From the NCBI GenBank assembly GCA_022822725.1, contig JAJEAN010000007.1, forward strand, positions 1,623,045-1,687,044: DNA of 64,000 bases, given 5' to 3'. The translations under genes were made by a program, and so were the position numbers. Source of the stretch: Candidatus Latescibacterota bacterium (GTDB lineage Bacteria; JAAXHH01). Within the stretch, counting starts at the first letter, position 1; the number at the start of each line of letters is the position of its first letter. Under the pieces are notes generated by a model that worked only from the letters and a program-made list of their open reading frames with translations, searched no databases and was not told the DNA's origin. Positions 24,889-30,864 of the stretch are shown here, piece after piece.

Positions 24889-25146
24889 ATGGCCGAGGAC
24901 AGCCAGGTCGTAGCCAGTTTCCAGAAAAACAGCCAGGAAGAGTTCCGCTTCACCATCACGTCCTTTCGCGGCAACGAATACGCCGATATCCGGATCTATT
25001 ACGAGAACGACGGCGATTTCCTGCCCAGCAGGAAGGGGATCACCGTCTCCCCGGAGTCATGGAAATCCTTCCGTTCCTGTCTCGACGAACTGGAATCGGA
25101 ACTCAGGGAGCGCAAGCTGCTCAAGGACGAAGAGGGAGACGGCTGA
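24889..25146 (+). CDS. PC4/p15-like single-stranded-DNA-binding protein
   Basis: The 85-residue protein fits the transcriptional coactivator p15 (PC4) C-terminal domain: FRFTITSFRGNEYADIRIYY forms the beta strands, followed by PSRKGITVSPESWKSFRSCL and a C-terminal helix. In eukaryotes this domain binds single-stranded DNA. Bacterial versions are small, probably dimeric, nucleic-acid-binding proteins with regulatory or protective roles. A GAGG ribosome-binding site lies before the ATG. It is convergent with the downstream fusion gene (28 bases apart at the 3' ends). Confidence 0.82.
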   Translation: MAEDSQVVASFQKNSQEEFRFTITSFRGNEYADIRIYYENDGDFLPSRKGITVSPESWKSFRSCLDELESELRERKLLKDEEGDG

Positions 25147-25174: not shown

Positions 25175-26401
25175 CTAGCCCACCCGGTGCCCTTCCCCGG
25201 CGAGAAAGCACTCCGGGTCGTGGCGGATGGGAAGATAACCCGTGCTCATGAGGAACTCGCCGACGATCTCGGGTCCCGTGAAGCGGAAGGTCTTCCGGAA
25301 CACCGCCACCCATTCGTCCAGCGAAGTGCAGGTCTGGCCGTTCAGCCACGCCGCGAAAGAACCGTGTTCCGCCCGGATCTCGCGGATGACCCGCGCGTTG
25401 TGGATGGCCGCGTCGATCTTGCGCCGGTTCCGGATGATGCCGGCGTCCGCGAGCAGGCGCGTCCGGTCCTCGTCGCCATAAGCCGCGACACGGTCCACGT
25501 CGAAGCCCTCGAAGGCCTCCCTCAGCGCCTTTCGCTTCTTCAGCACCGTCAGCCAACTCAGCCCGGCCTGGTTGATCTCCAGCACCAGCCGTTCCAGAAA
25601 GTCATTGTCCCGGGACAGGGGAAAGCCGTACTCGTCGTCGTGGTAGGCGGCCAGCAGCGGGTCTTTGAGGGTCCAGGCGCAACGGCGCCGTTCGCCGGCC
25701 CCTTCGACGAATTCGCCTGTCCGGACCGGGTGGTTGTCCACTCCGGTGATCCACGTCTCGGGCAGGTGGCGCACGCAGTTCATCATGGCCAGATGCGTAT
25801 AGGTGGGCGTGATGATGAACCGGGTGACGGAAGTGTTCGCGAACCAGTCGATCCGGTCGTGCCCCATGCCCGGGGTGCCCAGGATCACCCCCACGAGGAA
25901 CCGCATGAACGCCCCGTGGGACACCAGGACGACACACTCCCCGGTGTGGCCGAACTCGTCGTGGATCCTTCGGGCGACCCGCTCCGCCCGGGCCTGGGCC
26001 GCATCGAAATCCTCCCAGGGACGGCACTTCCACCATCCTTCCTCGTCGTACTCGTCACCGAGGCGTACGCCCGGGAATCCACGTTCGATTTCCGAGCGCT
26101 TCATACCGGGCCTGCCCTCGTAGTCCGCGTTGCCCACGCCGGCCTGGACCCCGCCCTGTTCGTGCAGGTCGATCCACGCCTCTGCGGACTGACCCGTCTC
26201 ACGGATGTAGGGGGCGATGGTCTCCAGGGTGCGCAGGAACGGACTGACGAAAACGCGCGTGGGGCGAAGGTGGCGGATGCGGTTCACGAGGTATTCGGCC
26301 TGCCGGTATCCGAGGGTGGACAGGGAGGGATCGTCGGTGCGCTCTTCCTGCGGCCGGGCATTATTCTCGGATTCCGCGTGGCGGATGATGTAAAGTTCCA
26401 T
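25175..26401 (-). CDS. Fusion: histidine phosphatase domain + DNA-3-methyladenine glycosylase I
   Basis: One uninterrupted frame of 408 residues joins two enzymes. Residues about 1-230 are a phosphoglycerate-mutase-like histidine phosphatase: LYIIRHAESENN holds the catalytic Arg7-His8, and LVSHGAFMRF the second His162. Residues about 241-408 are a TAG-type 3-methyladenine glycosylase. CAWTLKDPLLAAYHDDEYGF carries zinc ligands Cys241 and His254, EINQAGLSWLTVLKKR carries the catalytic Glu275 and the conserved Trp, and RHDPEC supplies His394 and Cys398. All zinc-site residues of E. coli Tag appear conserved. The start at 26401 is where the phosphatase domain begins; upstream in-frame sequence looks non-coding. 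Confidence 0.88.
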   Translation of the reverse strand: MELYIIRHAESENNARPQEERTDDPSLSTLGYRQAEYLVNRIRHLRPTRVFVSPFLRTLETIAPYIRETGQSAEAWIDLHEQGGVQAGVGNADYEGRPGMKRSEIERGFPGVRLGDEYDEEGWWKCRPWEDFDAAQARAERVARRIHDEFGHTGECVVLVSHGAFMRFLVGVILGTPGMGHDRIDWFANTSVTRFIITPTYTHLAMMNCVRHLPETWITGVDNHPVRTGEFVEGAGERRRCAWTLKDPLLAAYHDDEYGFPLSRDNDFLERLVLEINQAGLSWLTVLKKRKALREAFEGFDVDRVAAYGDEDRTRLLADAGIIRNRRKIDAAIHNARVIREIRAEHGSFAAWLNGQTCTSLDEWVAVFRKTFRFTGPEIVGEFLMSTGYLPIRHDPECFLAGEGHRVG

Positions 26402-26601
26402 GGGATCGGGCGGTCTTTCTCCTGGACGGTGGCCGTTGGTTGCGGTTGACGGGGCGGCGATAAACGCGCCGTCCACTCGAACCGACACAAGGTACATTCC
26501 CGGCCCTGCCGTTGAAAGGAAAAGGTTTGACAGGCAGGGCGGTTCGGGTTAAGGTTTCCTCCTGTTTCGAACGGTCCATTCCCCGCCTGGAGCGTACCTG
26601 A

Positions 26602-27707
<1,106 letters not shown>

Positions 27708-27711
<4 letters not shown>

Positions 27712-28811
27712 ATCACGCGATTCCGATGAAAGGCATCCTTGTTTCGTGTATGATCGTTCTGGCCGCTCTGTCCGGTGGACGCGCCGCCGCTCAAGAACAG
27801 TCGCTGACGTTCGTCAGCTGGGGCGGGGCGTATGCCCGGGCCTGCGTAAAGGGATACATCGAACGTTTCGAGCGGGAGACCGGCATAGAAGTCCGTATCG
27901 AGGACTATAACGGCGGCCTGGCGCAGATCCGGGCCCAGGTCGACGTGGGCAACGTGTACTGGGACGTCGTCGACATGGAGCTCGCCGACATGGTCCGGGG
28001 CTGCGACGAGGGTCTACTTGCCCCGGTCGACATCGACGAGATGGCCCCCGGCGCCGACGGGACCCCGGCGGCGGAAGATCTGCCCGAAGACGGTATCACC
28101 GAATGCGGACCGACCAATATCTACTATTCGACCGTCTTCGTATACAACGACGCGCGGATCGGGGCAACGAAACCCAACTCCGTCGCCGATTTCTTCGACC
28201 TGGAGAAGTTCCCGGGAAGAAGGGGCATGCGCCGCTCGCCCCAGGTCAATCTCGAGTTCGCCCTGCTGGCCGACGGCGTACCCCTGGACGAAGTGTACGC
28301 CACGCTGGACACGGAAGCGGGCCTTGGCCGGGCCTTCCGCAAACTGGATACTATCAAGGACCAGATCGTCTGGTGGGAAGCCGGCGCCCAGCCGCCCCAG
28401 ATGCTGGCCGATGGCGAAGTCGTGATGACCACGGCTTACAACGGCCGCATATTCAACGCACAGGTCCTGGAAGACCAGCCCTTCGTCATCGTTTGGGACG
28501 GGCAGGTCCTGGATACGGGCGGGATCGGCATCGTAGAAGGCACACGCAATTTCGAGGCCGCGATGAAGTTCGTCCGCTTCGCCAATACGCCTCGTGCCAT
28601 GGCCGACCTCGGCCGGTACATCGCCTACAGCCCCTCACGCCGTTCCGCCACGTCCCTGATCTCGACCCACGCCGAAACAGGCATCGACATGAATCCTCAC
28701 ATGCCGACCAGTCCCGAAAACGTCGACCGCGCCCTGCACAACGACTGGGAATGGTGGAGCGATAACGGCGAGGAGATGAACGAGCGCTTCAGCACATGGC
28801 TGGCCCGGTGA
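27708..28811 (+). CDS. potD: Extracellular substrate-binding protein, PotD-like
   Basis: The 367-residue periplasmic protein has a signal peptide (core ILVSCMIVLAALSGG, cleavage likely after AAAQ) and a mature start LTFVSWGGAYARA typical of PotD/PotF-type binding proteins. GNVYWDVVDMELADM and PNSVADFFDLEKFPGRRGMR match the family. The start at 27708 has GGAGGA just upstream and overlaps the potA-like stop by four bases. The ligand is not certain: the family also contains binders of other amines and organic acids. Confidence 0.91.
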
Positions 28812-28825
28812 GGGCAGGAAAGTAA

Positions 28826-30046
28826 ATGAACGTGGTCCCTGAGCAAAAAACCGGCCGGACCAGACCCGGCCCCGGGTTGCGCGCCGCGCTTCTCGTGCTG
28901 CCCCTGCTGGTCTTCATCGGGGTGACCTTCCTGGCGCCGCTCGCAAACATGCTCGTCCGCAGTGTTCACGATCCCGTAGTCGCCGACGCTTTGCCCGGGA
29001 CATTGGAGAAACTGCGAGACTGGGACGGCCGGAATCTTCCCGACGAAGCCATATACGAAGCGCTCGCCGGCGAACTGCTGAAATCCCGCGAGGACCGTAC
29101 GCTCGGCCAGGTCGCCACCCGGATCAACCGCGTTCAGTCCGGATTGCGCAGCGCACTGACCCGCACTGCGCGCAGGCTGGGGAACGTCGAAGACGGCCCC
29201 TGGCGGGAAGCCATGACCGGCATCCACGCGGCCTGGGGCGAGACCGGGACCTGGCTCGCGCTGCGCGAGGCGGGTGACCGGTACACGACGCGCCACTACC
29301 TGAACGCCCTTGATCTGCAGCGCGATCCCGGTGGATCCATCGTCCGCCAGCCGGAAGACCGGCGGATCTATCTCATCCTGTTCTGGCGGACCCTGCTCGT
29401 GAGCCTGGGGGTGACCACCCTCTGCCTGCTTATCGGCTATCCCGTCGCCCGTCTGATCGCCCACGCACCGCCCAGGCGCGCCTATCTGCTTCTGATCCTG
29501 GTCCTCGTGCCCTTCTGGACCTCGCTGCTGGTCCGGACGACCTCGTGGATCGTACTCCTGCAGAACCAGGGCGTCCTCAACGACATGTTCGTCTTCCTGG
29601 GCGTCATCGGGGACGACGGCCGGTTGGCCATGATCTACAACATGACCGGCACCTTCGTGGCCATGACCCATGTGCTGCTGCCCTTCATGGTACTGCCTCT
29701 CTACTCGGTCATGAGCGCCATTCCGCGGGTACAGACGAGCGCGGCGGAGTCGCTGGGTGCGACCGCCTGGCAGTCGTTCTGGCGGGTGTACTGGCCGCAG
29801 ACGCTGCCCGGCGTGGGCGCCGGCTGCCTGCTCGTGTTCATCCTCGCCATCGGGTACTACATCACCCCGGCCCTGGTGGGCGGCAGCACGGGCCAGCTCA
29901 TCTCCAACATGATCGCCTTCCACATGCAGTCGTCGCTGAACTGGAGTCTCGCGGCGGCGCTGGGCGGCATCCTGCTGGTCTGCGTGGCGGGGCTGTACGT
30001 GCTCTACGACCGGGTCGTGGGCATCGAACGCATGAGGCTGGGCTGA
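28826..30046 (+). CDS. potB: ABC transporter permease, PotB-like
   Basis: The 406-residue permease has a first span at about 18-40, then an unusually long periplasmic segment (about 42-185, rich in charged helix), then five spans. The coupling (EAA) motif is SAAESLGATAWQSFWRVYWP. Ordinary PotB proteins are near 280-300 residues, so the insertion of about 120 residues is notable but known from some PotB-like permeases. The ribosome-binding site is AGGAAAG. The next permease gene overlaps its stop (TGATG). Confidence 0.9.
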   Translation: MNVVPEQKTGRTRPGPGLRAALLVLPLLVFIGVTFLAPLANMLVRSVHDPVVADALPGTLEKLRDWDGRNLPDEAIYEALAGELLKSREDRTLGQVATRINRVQSGLRSALTRTARRLGNVEDGPWREAMTGIHAAWGETGTWLALREAGDRYTTRHYLNALDLQRDPGGSIVRQPEDRRIYLILFWRTLLVSLGVTTLCLLIGYPVARLIAHAPPRRAYLLLILVLVPFWTSLLVRTTSWIVLLQNQGVLNDMFVFLGVIGDDGRLAMIYNMTGTFVAMTHVLLPFMVLPLYSVMSAIPRVQTSAAESLGATAWQSFWRVYWPQTLPGVGAGCLLVFILAIGYYITPALVGGSTGQLISNMIAFHMQSSLNWSLAAALGGILLVCVAGLYVLYDRVVGIERMRLG

Positions 30047-30864
30047 TGACGACGACCGCCGAACAGGGATTCTGGCACATTGCGTACCTCGGATTCTGCG
30101 CGCTCGTCTTTGCCTTCCTGATCGCGCCGATCCTGGTGATCGTGCCGCTGAGCTTCAATGCCGAGCCCTATTTCACCTTTACCGAAGGCATGCTCCGCCT
30201 GGACGCCGACGCCTGGTCCCTGCGGTGGTATCGCCAGGTCGTGGAGGACGAGGAGTGGTCGCGGGCACTGGCGAACAGCCTGCTCATCGGGGTCTCCGCC
30301 ACGGTACTCGCCACGGCGCTCGGCACCCTGGCCGCGCTGGGCCTGTCCAATCCGGCCATGCCGGCCCGCCGCTTCGCCACGGGGCTGCTGATTTCCCCCA
30401 TGGTCACGCCCGTCATCATTTCGGCCGCGGGGATGTTCTTCTTCTACTCCGAACTGGGCCTGGCGCAGACCCACCTCGGGCTGATCCTCGCCCACGCCGC
30501 CCTGGGTACGCCCTTCGTCGTGATCACGGTCACCGCCACGCTGGCCGGGTACGACGAGAACCTCTCGCGGGCGGCCGCGAGCATGGGCGCGGGTCCATTG
30601 ACCGTCTTCCGGCGCGTCCAGCTCCCCCTCATCGCGCCGGGCGTCGTCTCCGGGGGCATCTTCGCCTTCGCCGCGTCCTTCGACGAGGTAGTCGTGGTGC
30701 TCTTCATGGGTGGGATCGAGCAGCGGACCATACCGCGCCAGATGTGGTCGGGGATCCGCGAGGAAATCAGTCCCGCCATCCTGGCCGTGGCAGTCTTCCT
30801 CATCGTCTTCGCGGTGTTGTTCCTGTTGACCGTGGAGTGGCTGAGGAGGCGGAACGCGCGGTAG
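30046..30864 (+). CDS. potC: ABC transporter permease, PotC-like
   Basis: The 272-residue permease has six spans; the coupling helix is RAAASMGAGPLTVFRRVQLP. The N-terminal LIVIVPLSFN-type segment (LVIVPLSFNAEPYFTF) is typical of PotC. The ATG at 30046 shares a base with the stop of the preceding permease, so translation is coupled. It completes a self-sufficient importer (ATPase, binding protein, two permeases). Its 3' end converges with the Rieske gene across a 20-base repeat array. Confidence 0.91.
   Translation: MTTTAEQGFWHIAYLGFCALVFAFLIAPILVIVPLSFNAEPYFTFTEGMLRLDADAWSLRWYRQVVEDEEWSRALANSLLIGVSATVLATALGTLAALGLSNPAMPARRFATGLLISPMVTPVIISAAGMFFFYSELGLAQTHLGLILAHAALGTPFVVITVTATLAGYDENLSRAAASMGAGPLTVFRRVQLPLIAPGVVSGGIFAFAASFDEVVVVLFMGGIEQRTIPRQMWSGIREEISPAILAVAVFLIVFAVLFLLTVEWLRRRNAR

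Follow-up and report, generated by a model that had tools for sequence, protein, structure and literature searches.

A histidine phosphatase joined to a short TAG-type DNA glycosylase in one genus of Candidatus Latescibacterota

An open reading frame of a Candidatus Latescibacterota bacterium joins a histidine phosphatase to a DNA glycosylase of the TAG type, which raises the questions of whether the fusion is a true gene and whether its two halves perform linked steps. The frame lies within a stretch of 64,000 nucleotides, referred to here as the window, and encodes a single chain of 408 amino acids. A sequence-only reading had described two apparently intact active sites in this chain, had taken the combination to be undescribed, and had suggested linked steps such as nucleotide sanitation.

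The fusion gene and its domains

The ATG at 26401 was taken as the start codon because the upstream stretch of a longer alternative frame, which opens at 26497, varies across genomes and because homologues begin with the residues MELYIIRH. Only two domains were found in a Pfam search of the 408-residue protein, namely His_Phos_1 (PF00300; E-value 1.4e-27, residues 3-208) and Adenine_glyco (PF03352; E-value 4.4e-39, residues 243-355, in a domain that extends over 239-408). The scores of 97.1 and 134.6 bits lie above the respective cut-offs of 21.7 and 25 bits (the latter being the gathering cut-off). The catalytic set of branch 1 histidine phosphatases (R, H, R, E, H) is complete, and the zinc and pocket residues of the glycosylase are present (Table 1), in agreement with the sequence-only reading, which had also listed four zinc ligands, a Glu and a Trp; by alignment these are C241, H254, H394, C398, E275 and W283. 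Structure prediction rendered two confident domains connected by a linker with pLDDT <50 at residues 222-236 (pTM 0.57), and among solved structures the C-terminal half resembles TAG proteins, including E. coli 1lmz, and the N-terminal half PhoE-type phosphatases.

Table 1. Position of the fusion gene, its domains and its putative functional residues in the window
Feature	Position	Strand	Basis
Fusion gene, 408 aa, stop TAG at 25175-25177	25175..26401	-	ORF; intact in 12/12 genomes of the genus
N-terminal histidine phosphatase domain, residues 1-220	25742..26401	-	PF00300, 97.1 bits; predicted fold similar to PhoE, PGAM5, phosphoserine phosphatases, tau55
R7-H8, nucleophile motif (RHA, not RHG)	26378..26383	-	invariant in family alignment
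R57, phosphate-pocket arginine	26231..26233	-	invariant in family alignment
E81, probable acid/base	26159..26161	-	invariant in family alignment
H162, second histidine	25916..25918	-	invariant in family alignment
Linker, residues 221-238	25688..25741	-	pLDDT <50 at 222-236; constant length in 12 genomes
C-terminal short-TAG glycosylase domain, residues 239-408	25178..25687	-	PF03352, 134.6 bits; TM 0.80 to TAG 2ofk
C241, zinc ligand	25679..25681	-	aligned with E. coli TAG Cys4
Y253 (pocket) and H254 (zinc ligand)	25640..25645	-	aligned with E. coli Tyr16 and His17
E275, equivalent of E. coli TAG Glu38	25577..25579	-	alignment
W283, equivalent of Trp46, invariant	25553..25555	-	alignment
H394 and C398, C-terminal zinc ligands	25208..25222	-	aligned with E. 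coli His175 and Cys179

The fusion gene is the only PF03352 gene of the genome, in which one further, weaker PF00300 match was found. Four HhH-GPD matches were also detected, the three examined resembling Nth, MutY and, weakly, an AlkA/OGG-like protein; a search of the genome for Pur_DNA_glyco rendered no match.

Conservation of the fusion

By whole-genome search, the 408-codon frame was found uninterrupted in each of the 12 genomes examined from the genus, and the protein of the other eleven is 86-96% identical to that of the window. The public records of close relatives are metagenome-assembled genomes labelled Latescibacterota or Gemmatimonadetes that come from several separate deposits. 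A frameshift or an assembly join between two genes, which the sequence-only reading had named as what would overturn it, is ruled out by the intact frame in these congeners together with the separate deposits of the records. Separate translation of the glycosylase was likewise rejected: no start codon between residues 208 and 245 is common to all the genomes, and the single conserved ATG near the junction is residue 207, within the phosphatase domain. Median pairwise dN/dS among the 12 genomes was lowest in the phosphatase (0.095), intermediate in the glycosylase (0.143) and highest in the linker (0.265), which has one length in all of them while its sequence varies. The fusion is therefore real and conserved through the genus, and both of its domains are under purifying selection.

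The neighbours of the locus (an aminotransferase, a PC4-like protein and an ABC transporter) are syntenic across the genus. The PC4-like gene (PF02229; window 24889-25146, plus strand) is convergent with the fusion gene and is kept in the 12 genomes and in a sister genus, G013. On the other side, a cluster encoding an ABC transporter (ATPase, binding protein and two likely permeases; window 26602-30864, plus strand) diverges from the fusion gene, with synteny across the whole genus.

Origin from a gene pair

In G013 the two domains are encoded by separate genes, a phosphatase gene (231 amino acids, ending in TGA) followed after 17 nt, in which a GAGGAG-like site is found, by a glycosylase gene (168 amino acids), and the products are 59% and 70% identical, respectively, to the fused domains. 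This locus is considered orthologous to that of the fusion because the aminotransferase and PC4 genes are located on the same contig. In a second sister genus, G012, the gene next after that of the phosphatase encodes a short-chain dehydrogenase, and a canonical TAG is encoded on a different contig. Upstream of the phosphatase, both sister genera carry a gene whose translation reads as an amino-acid permease. The more distant relatives examined, of either domain, are stand-alone proteins, which together with the unfused pair of G013 indicates that the fusion is most likely the derived state, produced from neighbouring genes in a single, local operon-to-fusion event. The junction suggests that this could have taken place by loss of the stop codon and a short change that restored the frame.

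The phosphatase domain

Among the best solved relatives of the N-terminal domain, by profile and fold and with 17-24% identity, are phosphoserine phosphatases, PhoE, PGAM5 and the tau55 subunit of TFIIIC. It shares fold and catalytic residues with branch 1 enzymes such as PhoE (1h2e), phosphoserine phosphatase 1 (4ij5) and PGAM5, but differs from them in this low identity (fold comparison), in its RHA motif and in the attached glycosylase. None of the named phosphatase equivalogs compared reached its cut-off, and thus the substrate cannot be named; PspA (NF045917) scored 41.6 against 350 bits. The model of the bifunctional RNase H/acid phosphatase (PRK07238) matched only in its phosphatase part, with 25.1 against 326 bits, and the protein has no RNase H domain.

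The glycosylase domain

The sequence-only reading had not recorded that the glycosylase is a short, non-canonical TAG. Its PF03352 match covers just positions 1-113 of the 177 of the profile, and the model of canonical TAG (TIGR00624, 'tag') was matched over positions 2-108 of 179 with 132.9 bits, below its cut-off of 232.5 bits. About 20 residues that precede the last helices of canonical TAG are absent, as they are from stand-alone short TAGs of other lineages, and in a phylogenetic tree the canonical TAGs form a clade of their own (support 100/99) on a long branch. Aligned with E. coli TAG, the domain keeps the four zinc ligands and the equivalents of Glu38, Trp46, Tyr16 and Trp6, and carries Leu and Tyr at the positions of Tyr13 and Trp21, respectively. 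The match to 1lmz agrees with the E. coli sequence used in this alignment over the part that it covers. The zinc snap of TAG, made of two Cys and two His, is supported by a review (PMC9266487). The predicted domain superposes on TAG 2ofk with a TM-score of 0.80, normalised by target length. Compared with the TAGs of E. coli (1lmz) and Salmonella (2ofi/2ofk), therefore, the fold, the zinc ligands and the four pocket equivalents are held in common, whereas the lesser length, the score below the 'tag' cut-off, the two substitutions and the attached phosphatase set this protein apart. Judging from the alignment and the predicted structure, the domain very probably works like TAG, in spite of falling outside the curated canonical subfamily model.

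Distribution and gene neighbours of the two domains

Samples of 384, 394 and 385 genomes, which partly overlap, were searched, matches with E <= 1e-35 being listed for the last two. The full-length fusion protein was confined in them to this genus. Contigs were scanned for the phosphatase with six peptide patterns derived from it, and the neighbour scans covered this phosphatase family only; given this scope and the E-value limit, canonical TAG fused to a phosphatase of another family might have escaped detection. Besides seven fused loci, the contig scan rendered more remote relatives, mainly from Anaerolineae and other Chloroflexi, Spirochaetes, one more Latescibacterota record and Gemmatimonadota. 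TAG was detected in none of the contig stretches examined around these distant relatives.

A linked distribution of phosphatase and TAG was not found among the 28 genomes with a phosphatase relative: TAG was detected in 12 and not in the other 16, and one of those 12 has a clear short TAG, which lies outside the examined contig of its phosphatase. Outside this bacterial family no phosphatase relative was seen adjoining a TAG, and neighbour scans of short TAGs elsewhere revealed no such phosphatase nearby. Long open frames around TAGs were considered as candidates for independent fusions and rejected; those in four genomes (L022, L027, L037, L038) contain no second Pfam domain, those in seven further genomes (L115-L121) contain no phosphatase, and they look like chance. 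The phosphatase directly follows tsaD in the same orientation at L054, L056, L061, L063 and L071, and one gene away from it at L066, tsaD and the phosphatase making up a recurrent gene pair in Anaerolineae and other Chloroflexi.

Relation between the two activities

The reading that we prefer, with a probability of roughly 0.65, is that two neighbouring genes fused in this genus only, giving one polypeptide with two largely autonomous enzymes, whose activities, substrates and independence we infer. The C-terminal domain would most likely bind DNA and excise 3-methyladenine in a pocket of the Glu38/Trp46 type, leaving an abasic site, and the N-terminal domain would most likely hydrolyse a small-molecule phosphomonoester by way of a phosphohistidine formed at H8, E81 serving as the acid; joining them in one chain would provide fixed stoichiometry and co-expression. 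Autonomy is favoured by the unstructured linker, by the fact that the two domains are distributed independently and by the precedent of the mycobacterial RNase H-CobC protein (MSMEG_4305/Rv2228c, PRK07238), the domains of which are dissociable in vivo and the fusion of which was most probably fixed by drift, according to its authors (PMC7466739). Both fusions are restricted to a lineage and combine a histidine phosphatase with an enzyme that acts on nucleic acids, and in both the two parts are under purifying selection (PMC7466739), but in the mycobacterial protein the partner is RNase H, the phosphatase stands at the C-terminus and has a link to vitamin B12, and the linker is highly variable; the likeness is one of analogy and not of membership. 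Coupling of the reactions is not needed to explain the observations. Some selected association between the domains is nevertheless possible, since the G013 pair is adjoining and operon-like and since the linker keeps its length while its sequence varies.

In the linked steps proposed from the sequence, the protein would be a small repair or sanitation machine whose phosphatase acts on a phosphate-bearing compound related to alkylation damage, for example a methylated dNMP or an end at the repair site. In a coupled module of this kind the substrate would be a nucleotide or DNA end that base excision produces or requires. The single chain throughout the genus and the neighbouring genes of G013 are consistent with such a module, as is mycobacterial MutT1, in which a histidine phosphatase is joined to a nucleotide-sanitising domain (PMC11784022). 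However, the independence of the two domains in the 28 genomes, their lack of recurrent adjacency outside this family, the short TAGs elsewhere that have no such phosphatase nearby, the presence of tsaD beside or near the phosphatase at six loci and the unstructured linker all speak against it. Moreover, TAG releases a free base, and because this base carries no phosphate it is no substrate for a phosphatase. Neither distribution nor context supports linked chemistry, and we regard a coupled module as improbable.

It could also be the case that the phosphatase, without belonging to the pathway of the glycosylase, stabilises or modulates this enzyme or directs its location. The constant linker length in the 12 genomes would fit, and the histidine phosphatase domains of MutT1 and Rv2228c affect their partners in vitro (PMC11784022, PMC7466739). 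MutT1 (Nudix plus an RHG histidine phosphatase) resembles the present protein in that an enzyme which protects the genome is attached to a histidine phosphatase domain, but its Nudix partner acts on nucleotides and its phosphatase domain is C-terminal; this domain can support its partner (PMC11784022), which would fit a regulatory role. On the other hand, the catalytic set of the phosphatase is complete and its constraint stronger than that on the glycosylase, stand-alone short TAGs are common and the linker is unstructured, all of which makes a regulatory fusion rather unlikely. As for the glycosylase, the missing residues, the score of 132.9 against 232.5 bits, the separate long-branch clade of canonical TAGs, the replacement of Tyr13 and Trp21 and the weakly AlkA/OGG-like protein of the same genome would suit an enzyme for another base or substrate. 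The retention of all the zinc ligands and of the Glu38, Trp46, Tyr16 and Trp6 equivalents, the close fold and the fact that in some other genomes a short TAG is the only PF03352-like match detected argue for 3-methyladenine and leave a different substrate doubtful. Two largely autonomous enzymes, the second of them TAG-like, thus remain the preferred reading.

Novelty and related short TAGs

A literature search found no description of the PF00300-PF03352 pair, as the sequence-only reading had surmised, so that the pair of domains is new with respect to the literature searched, both kinds of enzyme being already known. The adjoining genes of G013 and the single chain in the 12 genomes of the genus make up a clear natural case of passage from operon to fusion in a DNA-repair enzyme. 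If the two activities were coupled, this would be a new arrangement in alkylation repair and the first glycosylase-phosphatase repair enzyme. The locus also draws attention to an uncharacterised phosphatase family located beside tsaD in several Anaerolineae and to the widespread class of short TAGs, for which we know of no experimental test and which are common as stand-alone proteins in the genome samples. At one locus (L031:3011-4087, minus strand) two short TAGs are found in tandem, one of which has Ala for the Glu38 equivalent and lacks the zinc ligands, and, judging from these residues, is probably not a normal glycosylase. In another lineage (L027:2405-3636, plus strand) a short TAG is encoded immediately after a TenA gene (PF03070).
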